From NCBI GenBank assembly GCA_903893745.1, contig CAITNF010000009.1, forward strand, positions 62,001 to 126,000: a stretch of 64,000 bases of DNA. Reading direction: 5' to 3'. The notes beneath the pieces are model-generated. The model was not told the origin of the DNA, did not search any database, and saw only the letters and a program-made list of their open reading frames with translations. Shown in pieces: positions 9,182 through 63,048 of the stretch. Origin of the DNA: an uncultured Actinomycetes bacterium. GTDB taxonomy: Bacteria > Actinomycetota > Acidimicrobiia > Acidimicrobiales > RAAP-2. The position numbers and the translations under genes were made by a program. Positions within the stretch are counted from its first letter, which is position 1; the number at the start of each line of letters is the position of its first letter.

Positions 9182-9414
9182 ACGTCCCCCCTAATTAAAA
9201 GCATGAAATGTTACTTTCGGTGAGCCTATAGAACCCGGCTCGACGTAGCAAGGATGAACCTCCGGCCACCTCGAGAGGGGTTGTGAAGCCGACTTTTAAT
9301 GCCCGGCGGACCCGCTCGTTTCGAGTCGCTGCTTAGCCGACCCCCCACTCGAGCCAAGGAGCCCGCCGGACCGCAGGAGTACCATTGACTGAACTTTGGA
9401 CGTGAGGAGATGTG
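9182..9414. promoter_or_regulatory. Divergent control region between permease and amine-catabolism operon
   Basis: 233 bp between two divergent starts. It holds the ribosome binding sites of both genes (AGGGGGG near 9186-9192 on the minus strand, GAGGAG at 9404-9409 on the plus strand). CCGGCGG near 9303-9309 and CCGCCGG near 9362-9368 form a widely spaced inverted repeat. No clear sigma-70 promoter could be assigned. Confidence 0.4.
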
Positions 9415-10782
9415 GTGAGTACTTCAGCCCCCGGACGGCTTACTCGCGACGAATTGATCGAGCAGATCGAACTCGGCGCCATTGACACCGTGATTTTGGC
9501 CATCACCGATATGCAAGGTCGGCTGCAGGGCAAACGACTCGACGCGCGTTTCTTTATCGACGACTTAGATCTGGGTCCCGTCGAAGGTTGCAGTTACATT
9601 CTGGCTTCCGACGTTGATATGAACACCGTGGACGGCTTCGCGCTTACCTCGTGGGAGTCTGGCTACGGCGACCTCGCCTTTGAACCCGACTTCACCACCA
9701 TTCGCATGGTGCCCTGGCACGAAAAAACCGCCATTATCTTTGCCAATGTACACACCGTCGCCGGTGAGCCCGTGGCGGTATCACCTCGTCAAGTGCTCGA
9801 ACACCAGGTCGCCCTGCTCGCCCAACGTGGTTGGCGAGGTTTTACTGGTACCGAACTCGAGTTCATTCTCTTTCACGACACCTACGAGCAGGCCTGGTCG
9901 TCGGGCTATCGCGACCTCACCCCGTCCAACCAGTACAACGTGGACTACTCGCTTCAGGGAACTTCGCGAGTCGAGCCACTGTTGGGACGCATTCGTCGCT
10001 CGATGCGCGACGCGGGCATGATCGTGGAATCGGTCAAGGGTGAGTGCAACTTCGGTCAGCACGAAATCGCCTTCAAGTACGCCGAACTCCTAGATAAGTG
10101 CGACGAGCACGGACTCTTCAAGCTCGGCGCCAAGGAAATTGCGGCCCAAGAGGGCAGCAGTCTGACCTTCATGGCCAAATTCAACGAGCGCGAGGGCAAC
10201 TCGTGCCATATTCATCTTTCGTTGCGCGACCTCGCGGGCGTGCCCGTCTTTGCTGGTGACCTGGACCACGGCTTCTCGGCACTCTTTGGGCACTTTCTCG
10301 CGGGACTCTTGGCTTACTCGCGTGAACTATCACTCTTCTTGGCGCCCAACATCAATAGCTACAAACGCTTTGTGGCGGGCTCCTTCGCCCCCACCGCCAT
10401 GCTGTGGGGTATCGATAATCGGACCTGTGCCTTTCGCGTGGTGGGACACGGCCCCTCAATTCGAGTCGAGTGTCGAATTCCCGGCGGCGACGTCAATCCG
10501 TACTTGGCGGTAGCCGCCCTAGTTGCCGCCGGACTACGAGGAGTCGATGAATCGCTGCCGCTACCCGAATCGTTTGACGGCAACGCCTACGACTCGACGG
10601 CTCCGCATATGCCCACCACGCTCAACGAAGCCGTTTTACTCTTTGATCAAAGTGCTGTCGCCCGTGAAGCCTTTGGCTCTGAGGTTGTGGCGCACTACGT
10701 GCACGCAGCGCGCGTGGAAGTTGCCGCCTTCAACGCGGCCGTCACTGACTGGGAACGCTACCGAGGATTTGAACGACTATGA
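9415..10782 (+). CDS. Glutamine synthetase-like gamma-glutamyl-amine ligase
   Basis: ATP-dependent ligase of the glutamine synthetase fold (GlnA3/GlnA4/PuuA-like group), 455 residues. Two adjacent GTG codons (9412, 9415) could start it; GAGGAG at 9404-9409 is better spaced for 9415. Signature segments are the N-terminal MQGRLQGKR, the metal-binding TGTELEF, GECNFGQHEI, GNSCHIHLS with its metal-ligand histidine, and the NRTCAFRV...RVECRIPGGDVNPYLA segment. In characterised relatives the enzyme glutamylates putrescine, other polyamines or ethanolamine rather than ammonia. The partner aldehyde dehydrogenase overlaps its stop by 4 nt and the permease is divergent, matching a glutamylated-amine catabolic route. 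True assimilatory GlnA is less likely given this context and the divergent N-terminus. Confidence 0.8.
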   Translation: MSTSAPGRLTRDELIEQIELGAIDTVILAITDMQGRLQGKRLDARFFIDDLDLGPVEGCSYILASDVDMNTVDGFALTSWESGYGDLAFEPDFTTIRMVPWHEKTAIIFANVHTVAGEPVAVSPRQVLEHQVALLAQRGWRGFTGTELEFILFHDTYEQAWSSGYRDLTPSNQYNVDYSLQGTSRVEPLLGRIRRSMRDAGMIVESVKGECNFGQHEIAFKYAELLDKCDEHGLFKLGAKEIAAQEGSSLTFMAKFNEREGNSCHIHLSLRDLAGVPVFAGDLDHGFSALFGHFLAGLLAYSRELSLFLAPNINSYKRFVAGSFAPTAMLWGIDNRTCAFRVVGHGPSIRVECRIPGGDVNPYLAVAALVAAGLRGVDESLPLPESFDGNAYDSTAPHMPTTLNEAVLLFDQSAVAREAFGSEVVAHYVHAARVEVAAFNAAVTDWERYRGFERL

Positions 10783-12143
10783 GCTCGACCTTGCAGATCA
10801 TTAATCCGTCGACTGAACAGCCCGTCGCCACAGTGGCGATGGCCGACGTAAGCGAAACCGACCGTGTTATTGAACGTGCCGCCAAGGCGGCGCCCGACTG
10901 GCGCCGAGTATCTCCCGCTGACCGGGCGCGACTCCTGCGACGATTCGCCGAAGTCGTTGATAGCCACAATGAAGAACTCGCCCGCCTTGAGGTTGCCAAC
11001 GCTGGTCACACAATTGGTAACGCTCGCTGGGAGGCGAACAACGTTCGCGACGTCCTGCACTACTACGCGGGCGCGGTAGAGCGGCACTCGGGACGTCAAA
11101 TTCCCGTGGCCGGTGGTGTTGACATCACGTTCTATGAGCCACTCGGCGTGGTCGGCATCATCGTTCCTTGGAACTTCCCGATGCCCATCGCGGGCTGGGG
11201 ACTAGGGCCCGCGCTCGCCGCGGGCAATACGGTGGTCATGAAGCCGGCCACGTTGACGCCGCTCACCGCTCTGCGCCTGGGCGAACTCGCACTCGAAGCG
11301 GGAATTCCCGAAGGCGTCTTCCAGGTGATACCCGGTGACGGGGCGACCGTTGGCCAACGACTCGTCACGCACGAAGCAGTCCGCAAGGTCTGCTTCACGG
11401 GATCGAACGCCGCGGGACGCACCATCATGGAGGGCTGCGCGGCGCAGGTAAAACGCGTCACGTTGGAACTCGGTGGTAAGAGCGCCAACATCATTTTCGA
11501 TAATGCCGACCTGGCCAAGGCCGCCGCGAGTGCGCCCTACGCCGTCTTTGACAACGCGGGTCAAGACTGCTGTGCGAGGTCGCGACTCCTCGTGCAGGCT
11601 TCGGCCTACGACCAGTTCATGGAGTACTTCGAATCAGCGGTGAAGGCCGTGCGGGTGTTAGACCCCTCCGACGAGGCCAGCGAAATGGGTCCCCTCATTA
11701 CTGCGGCCCAACGCGAAAGTGTGCTGAGTTACGTCGACGAGTCCCAAGTCGCCTTTCGCGGAAGCGCCCCCGACGGTCCGGGCTACTGGATGGCCCCGAC
11801 CGTCCTCGAGTCAACGAGTCGCACCGAGCGCTCGTACCACGAAGAGATCTTTGGGCCCGTGGTCTCCGTCGTTCGATTCCACGATGAAGCCGAAGCCATT
11901 GCTATTGCCAACGAGGGGCCCTACGGTCTGTCGGGTTCAATCTGGAGTCGCGATATTGGCCAAGCGCTTCGTGTCGCGCGAGGTGTTGAGACGGGTGCGC
12001 TGTCGGTGAACTCCAACTCGTCGGTTCGCTACAACACGCCATTTGGCGGATTCAAGCAGTCGGGAATTGGCCGCGAGCTCGGTCCCGACGCCCTGCTGGG
12101 CTTTAGTGAAGAAAAGAATGTATTTATATCAACGGAGGAATGA
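10779..12143 (+). CDS. NAD(P)-dependent aldehyde dehydrogenase
   Basis: Aldehyde dehydrogenase of the ALDH superfamily, 454 residues, oxidising an aldehyde to the acid. Visible are the Rossmann segment PWNFPMPIAG, KPATLTPLTALRLGEL, the general-base region LELGGKSAN, the nucleophile region NAGQDCCARS with the catalytic cysteine near residue 265, and EIFGPVVSVVRF. Two adjacent cysteines occupy the active-site loop. ATG overlaps the upstream ligase stop (ATGA). By analogy with PuuC it would oxidise the gamma-glutamyl aldehyde formed after amine oxidation. No amine oxidase is present in this operon, so the step before it must be supplied elsewhere, possibly by another dehydrogenase. Confidence 0.88.
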   Translation: MSSTLQIINPSTEQPVATVAMADVSETDRVIERAAKAAPDWRRVSPADRARLLRRFAEVVDSHNEELARLEVANAGHTIGNARWEANNVRDVLHYYAGAVERHSGRQIPVAGGVDITFYEPLGVVGIIVPWNFPMPIAGWGLGPALAAGNTVVMKPATLTPLTALRLGELALEAGIPEGVFQVIPGDGATVGQRLVTHEAVRKVCFTGSNAAGRTIMEGCAAQVKRVTLELGGKSANIIFDNADLAKAAASAPYAVFDNAGQDCCARSRLLVQASAYDQFMEYFESAVKAVRVLDPSDEASEMGPLITAAQRESVLSYVDESQVAFRGSAPDGPGYWMAPTVLESTSRTERSYHEEIFGPVVSVVRFHDEAEAIAIANEGPYGLSGSIWSRDIGQALRVARGVETGALSVNSNSSVRYNTPFGGFKQSGIGRELGPDALLGFSEEKNVFISTEE

Positions 12144-12907
12144 TGGGTCGGTTAGAAAATAAGGTCGCAATTATTACCGGTGCCGCCAGCGGTATTGGTC
12201 GAGCAACCGCGGTGCGCTTCGCCGCGGAGGGCGCCAAAGTCGTCGTGGCCGACATGGCCCAAAAGGAAGGCGCTGCACTGGCCGAGCAGATTGGCGGCAC
12301 GTTCGTCCAAGTCGATGTCTCGAGTGAACAGAGCGTGCAGGCAATGTACGCCTCAGTCGTGGCAACGTACGGGGGCGTCGACATCTTGTTCAACAACGCC
12401 GGCATCTCGCCGGCCGATGACGACTCTATTCTCACCACCGACCTCGACGCGTGGAAGCGCGTCCAAGACGTGAATCTCACGTCGGTCTACCTCTGCTGCA
12501 AATACGGCATTCCACTACTGCAAGCGCGCGGCGGCGGCTCAATTATTAACACCGCCTCGTTCGTCGCGGTGCTCGGATCGGCCACCTCGCAAATCTCTTA
12601 CACCGCCTCCAAAGGTGGCGTCCTGTCAATGAGCCGTGAGCTCGGTGTGCAGTTCGCCCGCGAAGGTATTCGCGTAAACGCGCTCTGCCCGGGACCAGTG
12701 AACACTCCCCTACTGCAAGAGCTCTTCGCGAAAGATCCCGAACGAGCAGCTCGTCGATTAGTGCACGTGCCGATGGGCCGATTCGCCGAACCAGAGGAGA
12801 TCGCGAGTGCCGTGCTCTTTCTCGCCAGTGACGACGCCGCATTCGTCACCGCGTCAACGTTCCTCGTTGACGGAGGAATTCACGGCGCCTACGTCACACC
12901 GCTCTAG
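12143..12907 (+). CDS. Short-chain dehydrogenase/reductase
   Basis: SDR oxidoreductase of 254 residues. It shows the TGAASGIG cofactor motif, DMA after the second strand (acidic, so NAD preferred), NNAGIS, the YTASKGG catalytic Tyr-x3-Lys, and PGPVNTPL. Start choice: ATG at 12140 lies only one base from GGAGG, while ATG at 12143 has four-base spacing and overlaps the ALDH stop as TGATG, so 12143 is preferred. Third gene of the operon with the ligase and ALDH. The substrate is unknown; oxidation of an alcohol or amine-derived intermediate is conceivable. It ends close to a pair of palindromes before the convergent homospermidine synthase gene. Confidence 0.85.
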   Translation: MGRLENKVAIITGAASGIGRATAVRFAAEGAKVVVADMAQKEGAALAEQIGGTFVQVDVSSEQSVQAMYASVVATYGGVDILFNNAGISPADDDSILTTDLDAWKRVQDVNLTSVYLCCKYGIPLLQARGGGSIINTASFVAVLGSATSQISYTASKGGVLSMSRELGVQFAREGIRVNALCPGPVNTPLLQELFAKDPERAARRLVHVPMGRFAEPEEIASAVLFLASDDAAFVTASTFLVDGGIHGAYVTPL

Positions 12908-12914
12908 ACAGGCA

Positions 12915-12941
12915 CGACGTTCGTCGGCGCGAGGCGCCTCG
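12915..12941. terminator. Paired palindromes between convergent genes
   Basis: CGACGTTCGTCG (12915-12926) and CGAGGCGCCTCG (12930-12941, a perfect 12-bp palindrome) fill most of the 47-bp gap between the convergent SDR and hss genes. No T-run follows on either strand. They could be a bidirectional terminator; another role cannot be excluded. Confidence 0.35.
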
Positions 12942-12954
12942 TGGGTGCAGTAAC

Positions 12955-14412
12955 TCAACCCACCAGGAAGTTCATGAACTGCCACGGGTCGTCTTCGTCG
13001 ACTTGACGGCCCGACCACTGGTCGAACCAGTCAACGTGTGTCGACACGGGGTCCCAGTCAATCGGGCCCGACCACGTGGTGCCCACGTACGGCATGGCAA
13101 CTTGCAAAACGTCACGCCAAGGAAGTTCGTCGGGTACGCGCACCCCCGCCCGAGGTGTCCGGAGCATCCAATCAATGGCCCCAAGTATTGACGCCGCGAC
13201 CTGAATCGTGGTCGCACTTTGATGGGGCGCCACACTCCGAGCCTCGTCGATAGTGGTCAGCATGCCGGTCCACCACGACTTGTAGGGGTGTCCCATTAAC
13301 AACACGCCGAGTTCGTCACGACCCGAAATAATTTCGTCATTCATGATGCGCTGACGGGTCGGATATGCGTACTCATTGCCTTCCAGCTCGGCGAAGCTCG
13401 CCCAGGCCAGGTCCGAAGGACAGTAGGCGTAGTGAACGGTAGGGCGGTAGATTGCTTCGCCCTCTTCCCAGACCGTGAGGTGATCACAGATTGTGAAGGC
13501 TTCACCATGTCGGATCACCATACCCACTATGGGACCCGAAGGAACGCGCGAGTGCACCAATGTCTTGTGCGCCATCTGCGCAAAACAGATTTGGTTTAAC
13601 GGACCTTCACCCTCGTGCGTCAGACCCAACCGGGGTAAAACCTTCTCGTGCGTACCCCAGCCCAACTCGGCCGGCGCGACGCCTTCTTCATAAAAGCCGT
13701 CGACGCTCCACGTGTTGACAAACTCGCCAACTTCTTTCGGTCGATCAGTGATTTGGGTGTCGCGTTCGGCGACGTGAATCACCTTCACGTCGAGTAGCCG
13801 GGCGACCTCGTTGTAACGATCCTCACGCAGTGCCTGCTCGAGCGCGTCGCGGCGGTGCGCCAAGAGGCCATCAGTGAGTACCGCGGCGGCGATTTCACTC
13901 AATGCCTGCTTAGTGAGGTGGCTTACTAGACCGGGATTAGCGCCGTGCTCGACAACCGCCGACGGTCCGTCGTTCGTTCCCCACGAAGCGATTTGGCGAC
14001 GCAGCGCCATGTGGCGCCAGTAGAGCGTTCGATCTTGCGGCGACGTGGTGGCGGGATCGATGTAGGGGTCCCACACTTCTACCGAAGTGTTGAGGTAGCG
14101 AACGTTGTGTTCGCGACACCACGTCAGTAGTTCACTCAGTTCAATATTCCACGCCAGGTCAATGAGTAGATCGCCATCACCAAGAAAGGTGTTGAGCGTG
14201 GCCACCAAATTATCGGGAGTTATTTCCAACTGCTGATAGTGCACACCACGAGCCAGGGACGAGGCAATCCGATCTCGGCTCTCGCGACTCTCGAGCACAG
14301 TTACCGTCGAAGGATCAAGTTGAAAGTGGTCAAGGAGCAGCGGCAGTAAGCACTGGACTACTGAACCGCATCCAAGTATGACAACCCGCCCGGGCATGTG
14401 GAATTCACTCAA
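12955..14412 (-). CDS. hss: Homospermidine synthase
   Basis: NAD-dependent enzyme of 485 residues that transfers an aminobutyl group to putrescine, forming homospermidine. The N-terminus is a Rossmann motif, VVILGCGSVVQCLLPLLLDH, and the family signature VVEHGANPGLVSHLTKQAL is present. The length is typical of bacterial Hss. A TTG at 14412 with AGAGG seven bases upstream is the best start; the ATG five codons later lacks a ribosome binding site. It is convergent with the putative amine-catabolism operon, so polyamine synthesis and turnover genes adjoin. Members of the saccharopine dehydrogenase superfamily share the fold, but the HGANPGLVSH motif argues for Hss. Confidence 0.88.
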   Translation of the reverse strand: MSEFHMPGRVVILGCGSVVQCLLPLLLDHFQLDPSTVTVLESRESRDRIASSLARGVHYQQLEITPDNLVATLNTFLGDGDLLIDLAWNIELSELLTWCREHNVRYLNTSVEVWDPYIDPATTSPQDRTLYWRHMALRRQIASWGTNDGPSAVVEHGANPGLVSHLTKQALSEIAAAVLTDGLLAHRRDALEQALREDRYNEVARLLDVKVIHVAERDTQITDRPKEVGEFVNTWSVDGFYEEGVAPAELGWGTHEKVLPRLGLTHEGEGPLNQICFAQMAHKTLVHSRVPSGPIVGMVIRHGEAFTICDHLTVWEEGEAIYRPTVHYAYCPSDLAWASFAELEGNEYAYPTRQRIMNDEIISGRDELGVLLMGHPYKSWWTGMLTTIDEARSVAPHQSATTIQVAASILGAIDWMLRTPRAGVRVPDELPWRDVLQVAMPYVGTTWSGPIDWDPVSTHVDWFDQWSGRQVDEDDPWQFMNFLVG

Positions 14413-14569: not shown

Positions 14570-16807
14570 CTAGACCTTCGTCGTAGTGACGATGACCGTC
14601 TTCAGGGTCGTCGCCGTTACCGTTCGGACCACCACCGTGGCGCGCACCTTGGTCTGCAGGAATCGTTTCGCGGCGTTCGCCCGCGCCGAAGCAATCGTCG
14701 CGTTATTTTGCGAATAGCCAACTATGGTCACCGTCGACGTCGATCGCAGTTTGCGCGCCAGAGCGGTCAACTTGTTCTTGTCCGCCACAGTCAGTGCCGA
14801 CGACGCGTAGCCAAAGGTCAGCGTGACTCGTGCGGGCAGACCGGACTTCACGAACGACACCGTGGTGGCGGCGGAAGAGGCTAAGGCATAAATTCCGTTG
14901 GCGGCCTTAGTGGCGGTGACGATACAGGTACCCGTACTTCCCGCTGTCAGCTTCCCTTGACTCAGGGTGCACGAACTCGCGGTCCCTCGAGCAACCTGAT
15001 AGGTAACGGCGCCGAGACCACTACCACCAGCTGCCGCGAGCGCGAGGGCTGTACCAACTCGACCCGACAACGAAGTCACGCTCAAAATTCCTTGAGTTGC
15101 GCCAACGACAATGGCCGAGGCGTTCGCGGTGGCACTGACGTAACTGGCGTTGCCTCCGTATCGAGCGGTCACGCTGTAGGTACCAATCGCGGCCGGGGTG
15201 AGCGTGCAGGAGTAGGTCGACACGTTGAGTTGCGAGCTGGGACCGGCGGTCTGACAGTTAGTCGACGCCGGGCCACTCACCGACCAGGTGACGTTGCCCG
15301 TGGGAGCCGACGCGCCCACTGGACCACTCACCGTGACCGTAAAGATCAGTGGCTGGGACGGCACAGGCGGCACTGGTGACGAGGTGAGCGACAGGGTCGG
15401 TGCTGTCGTGGCAATCGCGAACGATGCCGCGCTTGCGGTCACGGCCTTGTAGTTCGCGTCACCGTTGTACACCGCGGTCGCGTTGTACGTGCCCGCGTTA
15501 GCCGCGAGCACCACGCAGGTGTACGTCGTGACATTCGCGGCTCCCGTACCGGTACTGGCCGTTCCACAGGCTGGCGTCGTCGGATACGGGCCAGTGAGGC
15601 GCCAGGTCATGGTGCCCGTTGGCGTCGCGCCACCGGTGGGCGCCGACACCGTGGCGCTGTACGTAACGGTCTGACCCATTGTGGGTGCCGTGGGCGAGAT
15701 GGCTACGGCCACGGTGGGCGTTGCCTGCGTAACGGTGACCGAGCCCGATGATCCCGCGCGACTGGCGTAGTTCAAATCACCCGAATACGTCGCTGTTGCG
15801 CTGTACGTACCTTGGGCCGGCGGAGTGATGGTGCATGTTTCAGTTGCGTAGTTCGTACTCGCCACGAGCAGACTTTGACTCGAACACGCGGTCACGGCAC
15901 CGGAGAACGTCCACGTGATTGTCCCGGTCGGAGCGGGGGCGCCCGTGGGACCAGTGACCGTGGCGCTAAAGGTGACTGATTGACCCAGCGCCGCGGTCGA
16001 AAGTGACGAGCTCACCGTGACCGTCGGGGTAGCTTGCGCAATGGTGACGTTGAGCGACGTTGTCGCGACGAGGCCGTTGTAATTACTGTCGCCCGCAAAC
16101 TCCGCCACCACCGTGTACGTCCCCACCGTCAAGGGGATGACCTGACAGGTGTAGGCCGACTTGTTGGTCTGAACTTGGACGGTCGGTCCGGCCGTGGCGG
16201 CGCAGGGAATAAGTCCCGTGGGCCCGGTGATGAACCAGGTCATCGGCCCGCTGGGCGTCAAACCGGGTTGAGCATTCGGTGGGGGAGTTGAACCAGTCAG
16301 AATCAAGGTAAAAGTAATCGTCTGGCCCACCGTGGTCGAGTTGCTCACGCTGGGGGCAACGGCCAACGAATTCGAGGTCGAAGTGGCATTGTCCAAACCT
16401 GGTGTTCCGGGGGTGTAGTTACTGTCACCCGAGTACGTCGCGATCGCGGTGAAAGGTCCCGATCCAATGCTGGCAACCGTACACGTGGCCGACGCGTTAT
16501 TCGTCGCCGAAACCGGGGCTAGGACCGTCGATCCAACATTGGTACAGCTACCGCTCGTGAGCACCCAGGCCACGGTGCCCGTCGGCACGCCCGGTGACGC
16601 GCTACCGTTCACGGTCGCAGTGAAAGTGGACGTGCCCGCGTTGAACGTCACGCCGACAGTCGGCACGGTGGCCGCACTCGCGGGCCCCGAGGTCACGGCT
16701 AGCGAACTCGCGGCCACGATTACCAAGGTCGCGATGACGCTAAGCGCCCCTCGCGTCAGAAACCGACCCAAATAGCCACACTTCAACCTGCTGTTTAACG
16801 TTGACAT
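14570..16807 (-). CDS. Secreted Ig-like repeat protein with OmpA-like C-terminus (second copy of the architecture)
   Basis: Predicted exported protein of 745 residues. ATG at 16807 has GGAAGG at five-base spacing, better than the adjacent ATG at 16810. Residues 1-45 form a long signal peptide ending in PASA-A. Five Ig-like domains of about 100 residues follow, each with a TPTGTxTW strand, a cysteine pair (as in TACSSQ...TETCTI) and GTYSATATYSGDxNY, so each probably holds one disulfide. Then come the same two modules that end the protein at 100-2346: a GSGLGAVTYQV/GTASSCTLS Ig-like module and an OmpA-like tail (LTALARKL...VTIVGYSQNN...ARANAAKRFL). The first five repeats belong to a different Ig family than those of the other protein. 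A cell-surface structural role is inferred. Confidence 0.75.
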   Translation of the reverse strand: MSTLNSRLKCGYLGRFLTRGALSVIATLVIVAASSLAVTSGPASAATVPTVGVTFNAGTSTFTATVNGSASPGVPTGTVAWVLTSGSCTNVGSTVLAPVSATNNASATCTVASIGSGPFTAIATYSGDSNYTPGTPGLDNATSTSNSLAVAPSVSNSTTVGQTITFTLILTGSTPPPNAQPGLTPSGPMTWFITGPTGLIPCAATAGPTVQVQTNKSAYTCQVIPLTVGTYTVVAEFAGDSNYNGLVATTSLNVTIAQATPTVTVSSSLSTAALGQSVTFSATVTGPTGAPAPTGTITWTFSGAVTACSSQSLLVASTNYATETCTITPPAQGTYSATATYSGDLNYASRAGSSGSVTVTQATPTVAVAISPTAPTMGQTVTYSATVSAPTGGATPTGTMTWRLTGPYPTTPACGTASTGTGAANVTTYTCVVLAANAGTYNATAVYNGDANYKAVTASAASFAIATTAPTLSLTSSPVPPVPSQPLIFTVTVSGPVGASAPTGNVTWSVSGPASTNCQTAGPSSQLNVSTYSCTLTPAAIGTYSVTARYGGNASYVSATANASAIVVGATQGILSVTSLSGRVGTALALAAAGGSGLGAVTYQVARGTASSCTLSQGKLTAGSTGTCIVTATKAANGIYALASSAATTVSFVKSGLPARVTLTFGYASSALTVADKNKLTALARKLRSTSTVTIVGYSQNNATIASARANAAKRFLQTKVRATVVVRTVTATTLKTVIVTTTKV

Positions 16808-16963
16808 CATTACCTTCCCACTCTTTGGACCCAATCTTCGCACTTATTGCCAAATGCGGCCAGCGTGGACCCGATGGCCGAATATTTCTAGGCAGACGGG
16901 TCTTTACGAGTATGACGATTGGGTAACGTCCTCGACGAGTTACTTCGCTCGTCCCTACGACCT

Positions 16964-17749
16964 CTACCGGACGGTCATCCCGCCATCGACCGCCACGTCG
17001 GCCCCCGTAACGGCTGACGATGAAGGGGTGCATAACCAGGCAATCGAAGCGGCAATCTCTTCTGGGGTGATGAGTCGGTTGATTGGCTGTTGGCTGGCGA
17101 ATGCTTCACCACTTTCGAGACCGTAGATCTGCGCCGACGCCTCGAGAATTGCGGTACGTGTGGAGCCGGGACTTACCACGTTGGCGGTGACCGAAAACTC
17201 CGCGAGGTCCATGGCGACGCCACGTATCAGCCCCACGACTGCGTGCTTAGCGGCCGAGTACGCCGCCAGGTGGCGCAGTCCCATCGAGCCCGCTGCCGAC
17301 GCCACCGCCACGATTCGGCCGTTCGCGTCGGGACCATTCGCAATCAACGTCGTCGCGGCGGCGTCAATAATTCTTCGTACACCGAGCACGTTGACCGACC
17401 ACACGGCGTCCCAGGTCGCGTCAGAGATCTCCCAAAGCGGAGCCCCGCCAGCCACGACACCGGCGCACGCCACGACCGCATCGAGTCGTCCAAAGTGACG
17501 AGTTGCCGTTTCTACCGCCAGTCGCATATCGGTGGCACTACGCACGTCACCAACGAGGCCGAGCACGTGATCGCCGTGTCGAGTGGTCAATGCTTCCAAG
17601 TCAGCCGGGGTGGCCAGTGCGTAGGGAATATCGGGAATATCACGACAGCGATCAACGGCAACGACGCGATAGCCGTCATTGACCAAGGCGTCAACGGTCG
17701 CGGCCCCAATACCTCGGGCGGCTCCGGTCACGATGGCGACGCGATTCAC
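16964..17749 (-). CDS. Mycofactocin-coupled SDR oxidoreductase
   Basis: SDR of 261 residues in the mycofactocin-dependent subfamily (TIGR04504-like). It shows TGAARGIG, VVAVDRCRDIPDIPYALATPADLEAL (only its start, VVAVDRC and YALATPADL, is needed to recognise it), VACAGVV, the catalytic YSAAKHA and PGSTRTAI. The insert after the second strand is characteristic of enzymes that keep NAD bound and pass electrons to mycofactocin. GTG start at 17749 overlaps the mftD stop (GTGA), so it is coupled to the biosynthetic genes. The substrate alcohol is unknown. Confidence 0.88.
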   Translation of the reverse strand: MNRVAIVTGAARGIGAATVDALVNDGYRVVAVDRCRDIPDIPYALATPADLEALTTRHGDHVLGLVGDVRSATDMRLAVETATRHFGRLDAVVACAGVVAGGAPLWEISDATWDAVWSVNVLGVRRIIDAAATTLIANGPDANGRIVAVASAAGSMGLRHLAAYSAAKHAVVGLIRGVAMDLAEFSVTANVVSPGSTRTAILEASAQIYGLESGEAFASQQPINRLITPEEIAASIAWLCTPSSSAVTGADVAVDGGMTVR

Positions 17750-18918
17750 GATCCCAACTTCCGATAGAAGTCCGATGGTGCGACGACGTCGTCACGACTC
17801 AAATCGTGAATGTTGGCGTGTCCCAGTCCGAGCAACGTCGAGTCGATACCACCGCGCAACACGTCGAGCACATTCTCAACGCCCGACTGACCATTTGCCG
17901 CGAGCCCCCATAGATAGGCTCGCCCAATCATCACGGCGCGAGCGCCGAGTGCGAGCGCCTTGACGACGTCACTTCCTCGACGAATGCCCCCGTCGAGCAG
18001 CACTTCGATATCGCCACCCACGGCGTCGACAATCGCAGGCAGTGCACGAATCGGTGCCGGAGTACCGTCAAGATTGTTGCCGCCGTGGTTAGAGACCGAG
18101 AGCGCGCTGGCTCCCAGATCGACGACCCGACGAGCATCGTCGACTCGACTCACGCCCTTAACCATGAAGGGGCCGTCCCACTGCGCTCGCAGCCACGCCA
18201 CGTCGGTCCAACTTGGCAGCGGGCTCTGCATCCACTCGTAATACGCTCCAAAAAATGTCGGTGGGGCCTGGCCGGGCCGCGCCATGTTAGGAGTTGTCAA
18301 ATCGGGAAAGTGACCAGTGCGCGCAAACGACCAGAGCCAACGTGGTCGCGCGATAACGCCGGGGGCCAACTTGAGCGCCGCCTTAGGCGTAATGCGCTCG
18401 GGAATCCACGGACTGCCCCAATCGCGTCCGTTCGAAAATGACCAGTCGAGGGTCAAAATGATGCCCTTTGCGCCGGCGCTCTTAGCGCGCTCGAGACGTT
18501 GCACCATAGTGTCACGATCACCCGACCAGTACATCTGAAAGAACACCTGCGAGCACACGGCGGTGACGTCTTCGAGCGATCGACTGGCAAAAGAACTTAA
18601 ACCCATCGCCACTCCGCGCGCCGCAGCGGCGCGGGCGACCGCCACTTCACCTTCAGGGTGCACGGCTTGCACACCGGCGGGCGACACAATCACGGGCATG
18701 GACACCGATTGACCGAGCACGGTCGTGGCCATGCTTCGATCATTCTCGAGTCCGGCCACGTGTGGCGCAAAGCCAAGTTGGTCAAAGGCGTCAACGTTGT
18801 CACGAAGAGAAAATCCCTTTTCGGATCCGCCCATAATGGCGCCGTAGACCGAGCGAGGTAGGCGGCGCTCGGCACGACGCTGGGCGACGGCTACCGTTTC
18901 AAACCACTTGTTCGCCAT
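17746..18918 (-). CDS. mftD: Mycofactocin biosynthesis FMN-dependent deaminase MftD
   Basis: Member of the FMN-dependent alpha-hydroxy acid dehydrogenase family, 390 residues. In mycofactocin maturation MftD oxidises the cyclised valine-tyrosine core (AHDP) to the redox-active alpha-keto amide, premycofactocin. Visible are the FMN-barrel elements VSPAGVQAVHPEGEVAVARAA (as SPAGVQAVHPEGE), LTLDWSFSNGRDWGSPWIP in part (LDWSFSNGR), the SNHGGNNLDGTPAP motif with its catalytic histidine, DGGIRRGSDVVKALALGA in part (DGGIRRGSDV) and GRAYLWGLAA. The ribosome binding site GAGGAGGT is excellent. It follows mftC by 58 nt and overlaps the SDR. Lactate-oxidase-like enzymes share the fold, but context fixes the assignment. 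Confidence 0.92.
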   Translation of the reverse strand: MANKWFETVAVAQRRAERRLPRSVYGAIMGGSEKGFSLRDNVDAFDQLGFAPHVAGLENDRSMATTVLGQSVSMPVIVSPAGVQAVHPEGEVAVARAAAARGVAMGLSSFASRSLEDVTAVCSQVFFQMYWSGDRDTMVQRLERAKSAGAKGIILTLDWSFSNGRDWGSPWIPERITPKAALKLAPGVIARPRWLWSFARTGHFPDLTTPNMARPGQAPPTFFGAYYEWMQSPLPSWTDVAWLRAQWDGPFMVKGVSRVDDARRVVDLGASALSVSNHGGNNLDGTPAPIRALPAIVDAVGGDIEVLLDGGIRRGSDVVKALALGARAVMIGRAYLWGLAANGQSGVENVLDVLRGGIDSTLLGLGHANIHDLSRDDVVAPSDFYRKLGS

Positions 18919-18976
18919 AGACCTCCTCGAAGGCTCCAGTCGAGATTACCTGAGTGCTCGCACGAGCCCTCCGCGT

Positions 18977-20089
18977 TCAGCTGGAGACGGCGATACGTGT
19001 TCTTCGCGAGTGATCCTGGGTCGAGGCGCGTCGAAGCGTGACTCGTTGACTAGCCAAGGCGGTTTCGCCGTGGCCAAAGACGCATTCGGGGTCGGGGTCC
19101 GTGATCTCCAGCCCAGTAAAGAACTTGGCTGCCATGCACCCACCCCGACAAGCATCAAAGGAGCCGCACGACGCACACGCACCCGGATTACCCGGTTCGC
19201 GAAGTGAAGTAAAGAGTTCGCTGGTTTGCCACACCGCCTCGAAACCATCAGCTCGAACGTTGCCGGCCAAGAACTCGTCGTGAATAACAAACGGACAGGC
19301 GTACACGTCACCGATGGGGTCGATGAGACAGACCACTCGTCCGGCCCCACAGAGATTGAGTCCATCGAGCGGTTCACCCAGCGCCGACAGGTGGAAGAAC
19401 GAGTCGCCCGTAAGGACCTGCGGACGATCTTTCAACCAGTAGTAGAGCTCACGATTCTGTTCGCGAGACGGATGCAGGTTCGCCCACTCATCGACCCCGC
19501 GTCCCGAAGGTCGAAGCCGGGTTAAGCGAAGTTGGGCACCGTAGGAGTCGGCGAGTTGTTCGAACTGGTCTAACTGCTCAACGGACTCACGCGTCATGAC
19601 CACCGAAATTTTGAACGGCCCAAATCCCGCGTCACGAAGGTTGTCCATCGCCCGACGAGCTTGGTCGTAGCTACCCTCACCGCGGATGCGATCACTGGTC
19701 AACGCGTCCACACCATCAATCGAAATTTGAATGTCGAGATAGTCAATCGACGTCAGTCGCTTCGCCGCGGCCGCGTCGAGGCGCGTGCCGTTGGTCGAAA
19801 ACTTCACACCGATGTTCTGCGACGTGGCGTACTCCACGAGTTCGAAGAAGTCCTTGCGCATCATTGGTTCGCCGCCACCAATGTTGATATAAAAAATCTG
19901 CATGGCCGCAATTTCGTCAATCAGTTTTTTGGCTTCATCGGTCGTGAGTTCCTTGGGGTCACGACGTCCCGACGACGAAAGACAATGCGTGCAGGCAAGA
20001 TTGCAGGCGTAGGTCAGTTCCCAGGTCAAACAGATTGGTGCGGCAAGACCCTGCTCAAAACGCGACCGAAGTGACGAGTCAACTCCCAC
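18977..20089 (-). CDS. mftC: Mycofactocin radical SAM maturase MftC
   Basis: Radical SAM enzyme of 370 residues that decarboxylates and crosslinks the C-terminal Val-Tyr of the MftA peptide. The cluster motif is C29-x3-C33-x2-C36 (YACNLACTHC), followed by NIGGGEPMMR, and a C-terminal SPASM region with repeated cysteines (CGAGRVVC, YACPF, CASCGSFDACRGGC) for auxiliary clusters. The start was set at GTG 20089: GGAG lies eleven bases upstream within mftB, and the preceding 36 codons of the longer ORF are mftB read in another frame. It thus overlaps the mftB stop by 11 nt. Confidence 0.94.
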   Translation of the reverse strand: MGVDSSLRSRFEQGLAAPICLTWELTYACNLACTHCLSSSGRRDPKELTTDEAKKLIDEIAAMQIFYINIGGGEPMMRKDFFELVEYATSQNIGVKFSTNGTRLDAAAAKRLTSIDYLDIQISIDGVDALTSDRIRGEGSYDQARRAMDNLRDAGFGPFKISVVMTRESVEQLDQFEQLADSYGAQLRLTRLRPSGRGVDEWANLHPSREQNRELYYWLKDRPQVLTGDSFFHLSALGEPLDGLNLCGAGRVVCLIDPIGDVYACPFVIHDEFLAGNVRADGFEAVWQTSELFTSLREPGNPGACASCGSFDACRGGCMAAKFFTGLEITDPDPECVFGHGETALASQRVTLRRASTQDHSRRTRIAVSS

Positions 20090-20360
20090 AGAGAATCTCC
20101 GAACGGGCCAGTGAACGAAGCGCGGCGACGTAGCGGTCGTGCTCGGCCGACGGTACGAGCGCCGTAACGGCATCCGAGGCGGTGGCGAACTCGCCAAGAC
20201 GTCGCACCAGACTCACGAGCGGTCGCGACTTCAAAAAGACCAGTCGACGAGTGTCGTGGTGGTAAGCCAGCGCGCCAAACGTCTCATCACGAAGTGACAC
20301 CCGGGGACTGAGCTGCCAGGCAGCCGACGCGTCAAAGGCGTCAGTCGTAACGAGTGTCAC
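20079..20360 (-). CDS. mftB: Mycofactocin precursor chaperone MftB
   Basis: Small peptide-recognition protein of 93 residues (PqqD/RRE-like fold) that binds the MftA leader and presents it to MftC. The diagnostic stretch LSPRVSLRDETFGALAYHH is present, followed by TRRLVFLKSRPL. GTG start at 20360 lies three bases after the mftA stop, and the end overlaps mftC by 11 nt, so all three are tightly coupled. Confidence 0.94.
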   Translation of the reverse strand: MTLVTTDAFDASAAWQLSPRVSLRDETFGALAYHHDTRRLVFLKSRPLVSLVRRLGEFATASDAVTALVPSAEHDRYVAALRSLARSEILCGS

Positions 20361-20363
20361 GGC

Positions 20364-20471
20364 TTAGTAGACCCCACAAAGGCCGTCAATCGAGACCTCC
20401 TCGACCAGCAGCTCTTCATTCTCTTCCAGGTCGAGTTCTTCGACCACTTCTGTCAGCGTGTCACTCAGCAC
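20364..20471 (-). CDS. mftA: Mycofactocin precursor peptide MftA
   Basis: A 35-residue ribosomal precursor that ends IDGLCGVY-stop, the mycofactocin core signature; the terminal Val-Tyr becomes the redox cofactor. The leader is strongly acidic and leucine-rich (for example VVEELDLEENEELLVEE), as expected for MftB recognition. GTG at 20471 has GGAG seven bases upstream. The gene is too short for routine ORF calling. It heads the operon mftA-mftB-mftC-mftD-SDR and is divergent from mftF. Confidence 0.95.
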   Translation of the reverse strand: MLSDTLTEVVEELDLEENEELLVEEVSIDGLCGVY

Positions 20472-20519
20472 TGCTCTCCTTCGTTCGCCCTCCCATTCTG
20501 CCCGGTCGTAACACCTCTC

Positions 20520-22001
20520 GTGGTGAAATCGTGCCAAACTTCGCTCGTGTCCTCCCTCGTGACCACACCACCATTACCCACCGATGCACCACTACCCGCC
20601 GGAACACTGGTCGTCGTCGACGAGCGAGCACGATTTCTCGATCGAACCCACGTCGCGGGGGGTTCACCGTGGCGCCTCTTGCGCCTCTCGGATGCGTCGC
20701 GGCGAGTGCTCGAGCGATGGGTTAACGGTGGCCACGTGGGTGTGGGTGAAGAGCACTTTGCGCGCACCCTCATTCGCCAGGGCTTGGTACACCCCCTCTT
20801 CGCTCCACACACGCAACTCGACGATGTGGACGTCATCGTCCCAACGCGTGACCACGTCATGGGTCTTCGTCGACTGCTCAGCCAACTTGCGGGACTGCAC
20901 GTCACCGTCGTCGACGACGGATCTTTGAACGCCACGCTGGTGGCCGAATGCGCGAGAAATTTTGGCGCCGAACTCGTTGTGCTCGAGACCAACGTCGGTC
21001 CCGCTGGCGCACGTAACGCGGGCGTTCGAGCGACCAACCGACCCTTCACGTGGTTTATCGACTCCGACGTTGAATTCGACAACGCCCCCGACGTGTTGGC
21101 CCGCCTTCGAGCATGCCTACGTGACCCACTGGTGGGCGCGGTGGCGCCGCGAGTCCGCGGTGGTGGTGGACCAGGTTGGCGCGACGAATTCGAGCAGCGA
21201 TTCAGTCCACTCGATATGGGCCCGTATTCGGGATTAGTGCTACCGGGAGGCGACGTGGCCTACGTGCCAAGCGCCTGTCTACTCGTGCGTCGAGAAGTAC
21301 TGGGTGACGGCTTTGACCCGCTCCTTCGCACCGGCGAGGACGTCGACTTCATATGGCGACTTTGCGATCAAGGATGGTTGGTGCGCTACGTGGCCGAGGT
21401 CACGGTGATCCATCGTGCGCGCGAAAATTGGATTGGCTGGTGGCGCCAACGCCTGGAGTACGGAACTTCGGCGGCGGCCCTGGCCGAGCGTCACGGTCAA
21501 CGGCTCGCGCCACTTCGCGCCGACGTGTGGACGTTGCTCGCCTGGTTCAGCGTGGTGGTGCGCCAACCCATGATTGGAGTTCGTATCACGACGGCCGCCC
21601 GAAACCAGCTGCGCGCTCGTCTGGAGACCTCGAGTGACGACGCCGACAAGGTGGCGACCGACGTAGTGCGACGCGGCATGGTTCGGGCGGGTGCCCCGCT
21701 GGCGCGTTCGCTCGTTCGGACTTACGGGGTGCTCATTTTGCTAGCCCTGTTGCACCCACGACTACGCCGTCGGGCGTTGGCCATCTACGCCTTGGGTTCG
21801 GCGTGGCGCTGGCGTCACGGTGAAGTGCGCGCGAGCGACGTCCCGCTCGCGCTCGCGGACGACCTCGCCTACGGCGTAGGGGTCTGGCGTGGCGCGTGGC
21901 GGTCGCGTTCACTTCGCGTGCTCACGCCCCACCTCACGACGTCATCACTGCGGCTACGCGACGTACTCGTGCGCTCGCGGCGACCGAGCGTTACACCGTA
22001 G
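20520..22001 (+). CDS. mftF: Mycofactocin glycosyltransferase MftF
   Basis: Family 2 glycosyltransferase, up to 493 residues, that adds the beta-1,4-glucose chain to premycofactocin. The N-terminal LPAGTLVVVDERARFLD and GGSPWRLLRLS are MftF-specific. The GT-A domain starts VDVIVPTRDHVMGL, with VVDDGS, NVGPAGARNAGV and FIDSDVEFD (metal-binding DxD-like). A C-terminal region with basic and hydrophobic helices follows (LALLHPRLRRRAL). Start uncertain: GTGs at 20520, 20523, 20547 and 20559 are all in frame and none has a clear ribosome binding site. The later ones leave more room for promoters shared with the divergent mftA. It abuts the convergent alcohol dehydrogenase with no gap. Confidence 0.9.
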   Translation: MVKSCQTSLVSSLVTTPPLPTDAPLPAGTLVVVDERARFLDRTHVAGGSPWRLLRLSDASRRVLERWVNGGHVGVGEEHFARTLIRQGLVHPLFAPHTQLDDVDVIVPTRDHVMGLRRLLSQLAGLHVTVVDDGSLNATLVAECARNFGAELVVLETNVGPAGARNAGVRATNRPFTWFIDSDVEFDNAPDVLARLRACLRDPLVGAVAPRVRGGGGPGWRDEFEQRFSPLDMGPYSGLVLPGGDVAYVPSACLLVRREVLGDGFDPLLRTGEDVDFIWRLCDQGWLVRYVAEVTVIHRARENWIGWWRQRLEYGTSAAALAERHGQRLAPLRADVWTLLAWFSVVVRQPMIGVRITTAARNQLRARLETSSDDADKVATDVVRRGMVRAGAPLARSLVRTYGVLILLALLHPRLRRRALAIYALGSAWRWRHGEVRASDVPLALADDLAYGVGVWRGAWRSRSLRVLTPHLTTSSLRLRDVLVRSRRPSVTP

Positions 22002-23153
22002 TTAGAACCGCACTACCCCACGGACGTTCTGTCCCGATTCGAGGTCGTCGTAGCCCTGTTGGACTTGATCGATGGTGTACTCCTGGGTGACCAGATCATC
22101 GATAATGAGTTTCCCCTCGTGGTGCAGGCGCAAGAGACGGGGAATCTGCACCCGCGGACTCTCGGAACCAAACACCGTGCCGCGAATCTCTTGATTGAAC
22201 ATTGAGAGGCCGAACACGTTGAGCTCCACCGTCTGCTGACTGTAGGGGGCAATTGACGTGGCGACAATGACGCCACCCTTGGCAGTAATTGAACGAGCCT
22301 GCTCGAGTAGTTCACCGGTCAGTACTCCAACGGTGATAATCACCACGTCACAGTTCTTGCCCATGGTGAGCTCGGGAAGAATCGTGAAGGCGGCATCGAG
22401 CGTGCTCGCGCAGCCGTGCGTCGCGCCAATCTTGAGCGCCCGATCAATCTTGGACTGATTGGTGTCAATCGCGATGATGGCTCGCGCGCCCGCGTGTGCC
22501 GCACCCTGGATGGCGCCCGAACCTACTCCACCGCAGCCAATGATGGCGACCGTGTCACCGGGCTTAACCCCGCCACGCGAGGCGGCCGACCCGAAACCCG
22601 TCGAGACGCCACACGAAAGCAGCGCGGCTGCGCGCAGGTCGTACCAGGGCTCGATGCGCACGAGCGACGCCTCGTTGACGACCATGTACTCCGAGAAGGT
22701 GCCCAGCTGGCACATCCGGTTGAGGTTTTGCTCGCCCAAGTGGTGACGCCAGGTGGCGTCGGCGATCATTGGCCCGGCCAGTGTGGTGGCTCCCAGGTCA
22801 CAGATGTAGCCCCGCCCCGACGCACAGAACTCGCATCGTCCGCACGAGGGAATAAACGAAGTCGCCACGTGGTCGCCCGGCTTGAATGCCGTGACGTTCG
22901 GTCCCACTGACTCAACCACGCCCGAACCTTCATGCCCTCCAATAATTGGATACATCGACGGACTTCCAGAAATCATTTCGAGAAGCGCGGGCTCGGGACT
23001 CATGTCACCGGTGCGCAGGTGCTCATCGGAGTGGCACATTCCCGCGAAGGCCATCTTCACCTTCACCTCATTGGCGTGTGGCTCATCAATCTCGATCACT
23101 TCGGTGTGCCAAGGTCCATTGAGTTCCGTGACGAGTGCGGCTTTTACCTGCAT
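22002..23153 (-). CDS. NDMA-dependent zinc alcohol dehydrogenase (mycofactocin-associated)
   Basis: Zinc-containing medium-chain alcohol dehydrogenase of the nicotinoprotein (NDMA-dependent) type, 383 residues. Catalytic zinc ligands lie in AGMCHSDEH and GGHEGSG, and structural zinc cysteines in CGRCEFCASGRGYIC. The Rossmann motif is IIGCGGVGSGAIQGA. The insert between them, with DATWRHHLGEQNLNRMCQ, is typical of this family, whose bound NADH is reoxidised by mycofactocin. ATG 23153 was chosen because MQVKAALV is the family N-terminus and GGGGG lies upstream. Its position next to mftF strengthens the link. Confidence 0.9.
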   Translation of the reverse strand: MQVKAALVTELNGPWHTEVIEIDEPHANEVKVKMAFAGMCHSDEHLRTGDMSPEPALLEMISGSPSMYPIIGGHEGSGVVESVGPNVTAFKPGDHVATSFIPSCGRCEFCASGRGYICDLGATTLAGPMIADATWRHHLGEQNLNRMCQLGTFSEYMVVNEASLVRIEPWYDLRAAALLSCGVSTGFGSAASRGGVKPGDTVAIIGCGGVGSGAIQGAAHAGARAIIAIDTNQSKIDRALKIGATHGCASTLDAAFTILPELTMGKNCDVVIITVGVLTGELLEQARSITAKGGVIVATSIAPYSQQTVELNVFGLSMFNQEIRGTVFGSESPRVQIPRLLRLHHEGKLIIDDLVTQEYTIDQVQQGYDDLESGQNVRGVVRF

Positions 23154-25032: not shown

Positions 25033-27717
25033 ATGACAACTCCCTCCCTCAACAGTTTTTCCGCCAAGAAAACCCTCGAAGTCGGTGGTCGCTCGCTCAC
25101 GTATTTTTCACTCCAGACCGAGGCTCTCGAAGCTTTGGGCGTCAGTCGACTGCCCTATTCGATAAAAGTGCTTCTGGAAAATCTGCTGCGCCACGAAGAC
25201 GGGATTAAGGTCCGCGCCGCCGACATTGAAGCGCTGGTTCGCTGGGCGGATACCCCCACGCGACACGGTGAGGCCGCTGGTGATGACGCCCGAGAGATTG
25301 CCTTCACCCCCGAGCGCGTCTTGATGCAGGACCTCACTGGTGTGCCCGCCGTGGTCGACCTTGCTTCGATGCGCGACGCCATCATTGCCCTGGGTGGCGA
25401 TCCCAACAAGATCAACCCCCTCGTACCCGTGGAACTGGTTATCGACCACTCCGTCATCCTCGAACGCACCGGTACGCCCGACAGTTACGAACAGAACGTC
25501 CAGATCGAGTACGACCGCAACATCGAGCGCTACACCTTTTTGAAATGGGCGCAGAGTTCGTTCCAGCAGTTCCGCGTCGTGCCGCCGGGAATGGGCATCT
25601 GCCACCAGGTGAACCTCGAGCACTTGGCTCGCGTGGTCTTCGAACACGACGGCGTGGCCTACCTCGACACGGTGGTCGGAACCGACTCGCACACCACCAT
25701 GATTAATGGTCTGGGTGTACTCGGTTGGGGCGTCGGGGGTATTGAAGCCGAGGCCGGCATGTTGGGTCAGCCCACCTCCATGCTGATTCCGCCGGTCGTC
25801 GGACTTCGCCTATCGGGCGCCACGCGCGAAGGAGTCACCGCGACCGACGTCGTGCTCACCATTACCGAACTGCTCCGTGGTCACGGTGTAGTGGGCAAGT
25901 TTGTCGAGGCCTACGGCCCCGGGGTGAGTTCGCTCTCCCTCGAAACGCGCGCCACCATTGGCAACATGGCTCCCGAGTACGGGGCCACCTGTGCCATCTT
26001 TCCTATTGACCGCGTCACCCTTAATTACTTGGCCTTTACCGGTCGCCCCACGGCCCAGCTCGAACTGGTCGAGGCGTACGCCAAGGCGCAGGGAATTTGG
26101 CACGACCAATCAGCGGCTGAGCCGGTCTATTCGGAGTACGTCGAACTCGACCTGTCGAGCGTCGAACCGAGTCTCGCCGGTCCCAAGCGACCCCAAGACC
26201 GTGTCTCACTCGCCGGAGCGCGCGGCGCGTTTCGTGACGCGTTGGGTCGCGAACCCAAAGAGGTTGCCGGCGTCGAGGCGGCCGAGCACTTGCGTGACGG
26301 CGCGGTCACCGTGGCGGCGATTACCTCGTGTACCAATACTTCGAACCCCGCGGTGCTCGTTGCCGCCGGACTAGTGGCTCGACGAGCGGTGGCCCTCGGT
26401 CTGCGCGCCCAGCCCTGGGTGAAAACGTCACTGGCTCCGGGCAGTCGCGTAGTCATGGACTACCTCGAACGCGCAGAGCTCGTTGATCCCCTCGACCAGC
26501 TGGGCTTCTATCTGGCGGGCTTTGGCTGTACCACCTGCATTGGTAACACCGGTCCCCTGCTCGACGGGGTCTCCGAAGCAGTTAACGAACACGACCTTTC
26601 GGTGGTTTCAGTACTCTCGGGCAATCGCAACTTCGAAGGTCGTATTCACCCCGACGTCAAACAGAACTTCCTCGCGAGCCCCCCGCTCGTCGTGGCGTAC
26701 GCGATCGCGGGGACGATCGACATTGACCTGTCGAGTGAACCACTCGGCCTCAGTAGTGACGGCCAGCCCGTTTACTTAAAGGACCTGTGGCCCAGTGACG
26801 CCGAAGTTGCCGACGCCGTGCGCGCGGCGCTGACGCCAGAGATGTTTGAGGAGCGTTACGCCAGCGCCTTTAGTGGTGATGACCGCTGGCAGGCCGTACC
26901 CTCAACCAACGCCGTCACCTACGCGTGGGACGATGCCTCTACCTACGTGAAGTTGCCCCCGTACTTCGATGGTCTCACGATGACGCCCGGCACGGTGAGT
27001 GACCTAGTCGGTGCCCGGGTACTCGCCAAATTGGGTGATTCGGTCACGACCGACCACATCTCGCCCGCGGGCAATATTCGCCCGAACGTCCCCGCCGGTC
27101 TCTACCTCACCGACGGCGGCGTGGCGCGCGAAGACTTCAATAGTTACGGAACCCGACGCGGTAATCACGAAGTAATGGTGCGTGGAACGTTCGCCAACAT
27201 CCGTCTTCGTAATCAGATGGCCCCGGGCACCGAAGGTGGCGTGACAATCAAGCTGCCCGAAGGAACACCGATGTCAATCTTTGACGCGGCCGCCGCGTAC
27301 GCCAACGAGGGAACCCCACTCGTCGTACTCGGCGGCAAAGAGTACGGCAGTGGCTCGAGTCGTGACTGGGCCGCCAAGGGCACCAAACTGCTCGGCGTGC
27401 GCGCGGTACTCGTAGAAAGCTTCGAGCGAATTCACCGGTCGAATCTGGTCGGTATGGGCATCTTGCCCCTACAGTTCCAAGCCGGTGAATCGGCCGAGAC
27501 GTACCACCTCGACGGCACCGAACTCTTCGACGTGGGCGGGCTCGAACCGCTTAATCGCGGCGAGACCGTGGCCCTCGTACCCGTACGAGCAACCCGTAGC
27601 TACGGCGAACAGGTCGACTTTGAGGTTCGCCTTCGTATCGACACCCCCACCGAAGCTGACTACTACCGTCACGGTGGCGTACTGAATTTCGTGCTTCGCC
27701 AGTTGGCGGCGGGCTAG
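25033..27717 (+). CDS. acnA: Aconitate hydratase A
   Basis: Tricarboxylic acid cycle enzyme interconverting citrate and isocitrate, 894 residues, monomeric AcnA/IRP1-type. The three 4Fe-4S cysteines are visible at about 433 (SCTNTSNP), 499 and 502 ([11 protein letters not shown]). Other signatures are [23 protein letters not shown] in part ([13 protein letters not shown]), [11 protein letters not shown] and [15 protein letters not shown] of the swivelling domain 4. GAGG precedes the ATG. The last four bases are shared with the stop of the convergent SulP gene. Confidence 0.96.
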
Positions 27718-29423
27718 TCGTTCGTCGACGCGACCGCGTGGTTCACGGCCGCGTCCACGCTGTCAAAGATTTGAATATGAAGAAGGGTCGTTTCACGCGA
27801 CGACGTGAGCAGTTGGCGCACTGATTCGTTCGCTCGTGCCACTGACACCGTCATCGCGTCAGCCAGTAAATCATCCGCGACCGCGCGAAGCATCGCGAGA
27901 CCGGTGTAGTCAAGGTCAGCAATCGCCACCGCGTCAATGACCACGTGACGCGTCGCGTGATGCTGCGCTAACAGTCGGTAGAGTTCGCGACGAAAGGCCC
28001 CGACATTCGCAAAGTACAGCGATTCACCAAAGAGAACCGCGAGAACGTGGGCAACCCGATCCACGTCGTGCGTCGTGAGTGGCTCCCAACTCGTCGTCGC
28101 GTGACGCCGCCCTAGTTCCACCATGCGCGGACGCGACGAGTGCCACGTGCGGAGCAAGATTGCGAGTCCCACCGCGACGGCCAACCCAATCTGGACGCCC
28201 AAGATAATCACTCCGAGCGCACAGGTCAGGGCAACGAGTAGCTCCGCGCGACTGGTGCGAGCAATGGCCCGCAGCGTGGCAACTTTAATAAGACGACCCG
28301 CGACAAAGAGCAAGACACCGGCCAGCGCGGCCAGCGGAATCGCGTGGACGAATCGCGCGAGCGGCACGAGGACCAGAGCCCCCAGCCCCGCGACGAGCGC
28401 AACCATTTTGGTCCGGCCCCCCGCGAGGCTGACAATCATGGTGCGCGCGGGGCTCGCGTTCACCGGCATGGCGCCCGCGAGACCGGCCACGATGTTGGCC
28501 ACTCCAATGCCGACAAAATCTCGGTCAAGGTTTTGGGCGACGCCGATCTCATCGGCCACCGTTCGCGACGTTGCCGCGCTCTGGCTCACGATGACCACGA
28601 CGAGCGTCAACGCCGTCGTGACAATGGCACCCCATTCGTGGACGGAGAACCACCGCAGGCGCCACGACGGAGCCCCGACGACGACCGAACCAAGTTCCAC
28701 GACGCCGTGATGTGACAGTGACAACGTGGCACAGACCAGCGTGGCCCCGAGCACCGCCACGAGAGCTAGGGGCAGACGAGGTCGCCAGTGCTCCCCGATC
28801 ATCATGAGGAGCAGTGTGCCGAGCGCGAGTAGCACTGTCCACGAGTTCGCGTGGTTGAGTTGATGGCTCAGCGCACTGAGCCGTGACCAGACTGACGATC
28901 CTCGCGACACCACACCCAGAACCTGCGGGAGCTGATGAATCATGATGATGACGCCGATGCCACTCATGAAACCAGCGATAATGGGCAGCGAAAGAAAATC
29001 GGCCAGCCAGCCCAACTTCAAGACCCCCACCGCCACGACCATGATTCCAGTCACCACCGCGCAGGCCGCGACGAGGGCGAGGTACGCGGCCGAGTTTCCC
29101 AAGGCCAGATGCAACAGTGCCACGGCGAAGAGCGGCGCGATGGTCGAGTCGGCGCCAATCGAAAGAATGGGATTTGCCCCGACCACAACGAAGACCAACG
29201 TCGCCGCGATAAAGGCGATCATCGCCGTGAACGCGGGCACCGAGGCCAGCTGGGCCGTCGCTAGCTGCTCAGGAATCGCGAGAGCCAGCAAGGTGATACC
29301 GGCAACGAGCTCACCCAAGAGATTCTCTCGCGTGAGTCCGAGCAGCGTCTGGCGCCATCCGTGCGCGGCGACACGCTGGCTGACGGGCGTTCTCGGGGAA
29401 GCTCGCTTCGAGCTTTTACTCAC
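27714..29423 (-). CDS. SulP-family anion transporter with STAS domain
   Basis: Membrane transporter of 569 residues with about ten to twelve hydrophobic segments (residues 35-420) and a cytoplasmic STAS domain at the end ([17 protein letters not shown]). The N-terminal transport-domain motif [19 protein letters not shown] replaces the usual VGLLLIPQSMAYA form. Substrates in the family include sulfate, bicarbonate and other small anions; the sequence does not decide. Stop codon is interlocked with that of acnA (CTAG at 27714-27717). Confidence 0.85.
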
Positions 29424-33492: not shown

Positions 33493-33546
33493 GCGCGGAA
33501 GCGTACCGGCCGGCGCACCATCACCGCGATTCACTAAGGTTGAGGG

Positions 33547-34671: not shown

Positions 34672-34691
34672 GTCGCCGTTAGAGTCACTGC

Positions 34692-63003: not shown

Positions 63004-63048
63004 ACTCCATTGTGGTCGGCGTGACGTAAGGAGAGCAAACTCCCTACC

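Follow-up and report, generated by a model that had tools for sequence, protein, structure and literature searches.

The mycofactocin cluster of Mycobacterium and the M. smegmatis strain that lacks mftE are the closest described systems. MftB, MftC and MftF are universal markers of mycofactocin clusters, and the families MftE (TIGR03964), MftD and MftR are found in most, not all, of the species that bear a cluster (PMC3023750, 2011). In M. smegmatis without mftE growth on ethanol is delayed or slow (PMC6529628), and mycofactocins are still made at a lower level while glycyl-AHDP species accumulate (PMC7491314). The authors of that study infer a complementing peptidase of unknown identity, for which an aminopeptidase would suffice (PMC7491314). 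The question of which peptidase frees the core in the absence of MftE comes from M. smegmatis genetics.

The mycofactocin locus and the genes it lacks

The window analysed here is a stretch of 64,000 nucleotides (G000:C9:62001-126000) from an uncultured actinobacterium of soil or freshwater, whose genome assembly of 1.66 Mb in 18 contigs is 96.4% complete. Genes were identified by the curated NCBIfam cut-off of each family model. All seven window genes named in the first-pass annotation were found, each above its cut-off (Table 1), including the three universal markers. In addition, the locus has an MftA ending in C-G-V-Y, MftD and the nicotinoprotein oxidoreductases (SDR and ADH). MftE, a usual feature which is not defining since some species are without it (PMC3023750), is missing.

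As the first-pass annotation had proposed, mftA, mftB, mftC and mftD lie consecutively on the minus strand. They form one operon with the mycofactocin-type SDR gene, which that annotation had placed in the same transcript; the operon runs from 20471 to 16964. The SDR gene overlaps mftD by 4 bp, and the gap between mftC and mftD is 58 bp. The mftA gene starts with GTG just downstream of an RBS-like AAGGAG, and its product ends in ELLVEEVSIDGLCGVY (IDGLCGVY). MftC contains the CxxxCxxC motif, and judged from relatives of about 370 aa its start is likely the GTG at 20089, which lies within the end of mftB. Coordinates and family scores also agree with the proposed divergent orientation of mftF relative to mftA and with an NDMA-type ADH gene abutting mftF, the latter two being convergent with zero gap.

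Table 1. Features of the mycofactocin locus, in positions of the window, with family model scores and curated cut-offs.
Feature	Position	Strand	Description and evidence
mftA	20364..20471	-	35-aa precursor VLSDTLTEVVEELDLEENEELLVEEVSIDGLCGVY; TIGR03969 39.5 bits, cut-off 25
mftB	20079..20360	-	RRE-type chaperone; TIGR03967 88.8 bits, cut-off 33
mftC	18977..20089	-	radical SAM/SPASM maturase; TIGR03962 581 bits, cut-off 265
mftD	17746..18918	-	FMN-dependent pre-mycofactocin synthase; TIGR03966 683 bits, cut-off 471
SDR	16964..17749	-	mycofactocin-coupled SDR; TIGR04504 333 bits, cut-off 250
mftF	20520..22001	+	glycosyltransferase; TIGR03965 301 bits, cut-off 280
ADH	22002..23153	-	NDMA-dependent (mycofactocin-associated) ADH; TIGR03989 480 bits, cut-off 440; ATG at 23153
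Vacated mftD site	27714..27717		aconitase/SulP junction; synteny and Pfam matches of flanks

The first-pass annotation had also noted that mftE, mftG and a local mftR are missing from the window. Searches of the whole assembly with TIGR03964 (MftE) and PF02633 (creatininase family), both positive in control genomes, gave zero matches, for PF02633 even at E<=10, so that the absence of mftE holds for the window and for the remaining assembly. No mftE remnant was found at the locus by tblastn with true MftE queries (best E 0.029); a first set of matches antisense to mftD was an artefact of a wrong ORF among the queries. MftG (TIGR03970) was not matched at E<=1e-60 in this genome or above its cut-off in the sampled relatives, and no mftR was found near the locus. 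Among the window proteins checked, only the one at 55092-55703 matches MftR weakly (40 bits, cut-off 225), and it is closer to FasR. Both absences, of MftG and of a nearby mftR, are real but common; MftG is absent in about 25% of MftC-encoding genomes (PMC11778925).

Several other genes of the window were annotated along with the locus. A polyamine-type group at 7589-14412 comprises an amino-acid permease, a glutamine-synthetase-like protein (gamma-glutamylputrescine synthetase-like), an aldehyde dehydrogenase, an SDR and a homospermidine synthase. Just downstream of the mft SDR gene, positions 14570-16843 encode a 757-aa protein with five Big_3_5 Ig-like domains and the look of a surface protein. 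The 666-aa ORF at 32707-34707 has an Fpg/Nei glycosylase and H2TH match in its C-terminal part and no Pfam match in the N-terminal 400 residues, and at 61372-63123 an alpha/beta hydrolase carries a fused C-terminal DUF3293 domain.

Loss of mftE in the genus and in the order

The distribution of MftE was examined in 99 genomes of the genus, of which those with a completeness of 90% or more and a contamination of 5% or less were counted as high-quality. MftC is above cut-off in 70 of the 99, and credible MftE is present in eight: above cut-off in G013, G016, G070, G105, G116 and G117, and slightly below it, yet directly downstream of mftC, in G118 and G119. Seven of these eight have MftC above cut-off. 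MftE is missing from 63 of the 70 MftC-positive genomes and from 33 of the 39 in the high-quality subset. A few genus genomes encode weak creatininase homologues far below the MftE cut-off; this genome encodes none. Relatives retrieved by name come from palsa, bog and lakes, all as uncultured Acidimicrobiales MAGs. Genome G122 (89% complete) has MftD at 687 bits and no detected MftC, possibly an orphan or an assembly gap.

Across 298 genomes of the Acidimicrobiales MftC was found in 115 and MftE above cut-off in 99; in other families about 94 of 105 MftC-positive genomes carry MftE, as read from two tables. The gaps cluster in g58 of family f56, where MftE is absent in all six MftC-positive genomes, and in g27, a sister genus within the family of the genome analysed here, where it is absent in both sampled genomes (G309, G330). 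The loci are B-C-D or A-B-C-D in g58 and A-B-C-SDR in g27, all without mftE. The g27 genomes and the four g58 genomes checked still carry mftD. Therefore, in the Acidimicrobiales genomes checked, loss of mftE has occurred more than once, each time with mftD retained.

Within the genus the loss goes along with a change in the operon. MftE-positive members have the order A-B-C-E-SDR with mftD at another site, and MftE-negative members, this genome included, have A-B-C-D-SDR with mftD in the exact slot of mftE, for the most part no more than about 250 bp from mftC (insertions in three genomes). In G105, G116, G117, G118 and G119 the mftD gene is found on the far side of ArgS and aconitase, together with a hydrolase gene near the aconitase-SulP region (synteny clusters 7, 25, 13, 19 and 20). 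The corresponding neighbourhood in this window is the junction between aconitase (25033-27717) and a SulP transporter (27714-29423), both assigned by Pfam matches. In G013 and G016 mftD is on a separate contig, at a site common to G122; the idea of a mutual exclusion of mftD and mftE, raised by these two genomes, was dropped as mftD was found elsewhere in both. The gene is unusually mobile within genomes, with at least three neighbourhoods in family f1 (g1 and g27; G013, G016, G105, G117, G119, G309).

A five-gene tree (MftC, MftF, ADH, ArgS and aconitase) built on 2414 columns from 33 genomes, from which G099 and G088 with their very divergent MftC were left out, places the MftE-negative members of the genus in one clade (SH-aLRT 97.5, UFBoot 88) within a MftE-positive grade; a tree of MftC only was poorly resolved. 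Because the MftE-negative genomes are nested in this way, one loss of mftE with relocation of mftD is the simplest history of the clade.

Proposed release of the core without MftE

Several observations bear on whether the pathway is still in use. Pairs of closely related MftE-negative genomes show dN/dS values of 0.05-0.21 for mftC, 0.03-0.13 for mftD and 0.15-0.29 for mftF, and C, D, F and ADH are all under purifying selection after the loss. Over its last 16 residues MftA hardly varies across the genus (ELLVEEV/I-SIDGLCGVY, with one DLLVEEV), whether or not MftE is present, IDGLCGVY being fully invariant. The mycofactocin-dependent SDR and ADH are kept in most genus loci. Taken together, the low dN/dS, the invariant MftA core and the retained partners argue for a pathway that is functional after the loss of mftE.

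We consider it likely that this is a working mycofactocin pathway minus the dedicated peptidase MftE, in which housekeeping aminopeptidases release the core. By homology, MftB would bind MftA, and MftC would decarboxylate and cyclise the C-terminal Val-Tyr. Housekeeping peptidases would then degrade the MftA leader starting at its N-terminus, up to and including the last glycine, and so set AHDP free. By the same homology, MftD would oxidise AHDP to pre-mycofactocin, MftF would glycosylate it, and the SDR and the NDMA-type ADH would use the glycosylated product.

No conserved peptidase gene was seen beside mft in the 33 MftE-negative genus loci read, nor in the loci of g27 and g58, and none of the annotated window genes was recognisable as a peptidase, some ORFs of the window having no Pfam match. 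The gene at 12955-14412, considered as a substitute peptidase, encodes the homospermidine synthase; it lies beside mft in 14 MftE-negative relatives and in no MftE-positive one. None of the other recurrent neighbours in MftE-negative genomes resembles a peptidase, as judged by reading their sequences; they look like a CsoR-like repressor, a disulfide reductase, a sulfide:quinone reductase-like protein, a methyltransferase and a cysteine-synthase-like protein. Together with the phenotype seen when mftE is deleted in M. smegmatis, the lack of a peptidase at the locus supports housekeeping release, and by elimination only, general aminopeptidases are probably the substitute for MftE. The first-pass annotation had left two options, mftE elsewhere or substitution by another peptidase; the former is refuted, for this assembly by the searches and for the clade by comparison of genomes, and the latter is favoured by elimination and by the M. 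smegmatis phenotype. One candidate release enzyme is the M17 leucyl aminopeptidase (G000:C6:60978-61907 in this genome). It is present in 58 of 59 high-quality genus genomes, and since it is universal its presence does not discriminate.

The explanation that competes most with housekeeping release is a dedicated peptidase of another fold, unrecognised and encoded away from the locus, that replaced MftE in the clade. Fixation of the loss in a large clade, though the M. smegmatis fallback is inefficient (PMC7491314), could reflect such a dedicated replacement, and RiPP proteases outside their cluster are well documented (PMC10885120). However, no candidate adjoins mft in the 33 loci, and we judge this explanation unlikely. 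That the pathway is decaying, or ends at a peptide-bound or glycyl-AHDP product, would fit the glycyl-AHDP forms that build up in the M. smegmatis deletion (PMC7491314), but is very unlikely in view of the purifying selection that has acted on C, D, F and ADH since the loss, the invariant MftA core and the retention of SDR and ADH.

MftD itself might be the releasing enzyme, as it occupies the exact operon slot of mftE and is kept in every MftE-negative g27 and g58 genome checked. It would oxidise the C-N bond of the peptide-bound core to give pre-mycofactocin and a C-terminally amidated peptide; release and oxidation would then be one step and a peptidase unnecessary. No clade-specific substitutions were found in MftB, MftD or MftF, and the three clade-specific sites of MftC are not common to other MftE-negative lineages. 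No residue of MftD separates MftE-negative from MftE-positive genomes, which speaks against a new role of this enzyme; moreover, g27 is without MftE, yet has mftD outside the slot, and in the published chemistry the substrate of MftD is free AHDP (PMC7491314). A release by MftD is thus extremely unlikely. Least probable of all is an mftE hidden in an assembly gap of this MAG. Its 18 contigs and incomplete assembly leave room for a gap, but mftC, mftD and the SDR gene are contiguous around the 58-bp spacer, and a gap in one assembly cannot explain an absence shared by most MftC-positive genomes of the genus, the high-quality ones included.

Comparison with described mycofactocin systems

Like the cluster mftABCDEF of Mycobacterium (Rv0691A-Rv0696), the locus encodes MftA, MftB, MftC, MftD and MftF with the core C-G-V-Y intact, and a mycofactocin-dependent SDR and an NDMA-type ADH are adjacent. 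In contrast to Mycobacterium, mftE, mftG and a local mftR are missing, mftF is divergent instead of downstream, and the SDR gene overlaps mftD. It resembles the M. smegmatis mftE deletion (PMC7491314, PMC6529628) in that MftE is missing while the other genes are kept, and that mutant still makes mycofactocin. However, the mutant is a laboratory deletion with reduced yield, whereas the loss described here is natural and fixed in a clade.

That mftE is not universal has been known since 2011 (PMC3023750), and its loss is in this respect half expected; mftE should not be a requirement for calling mycofactocin clusters. In our partial coverage of the literature no paper joining mycofactocin with Acidimicrobiia was found. 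A genus with MftE-positive and MftE-negative species, together with two or more other losses in the Acidimicrobiales, offers a natural route to the substitute through genome comparison and in vitro assays. For the mftE-less species of 2011 no mechanism, clade or replacement was described (PMC3023750), whereas here a tree locates the loss and synteny shows mftD taking over the slot of mftE. New are thus a phylogenetically placed natural loss at the level of a clade, the exchange of mftE for mftD in the operon slot, the lack of a locus-linked substitute and two further losses in the order.
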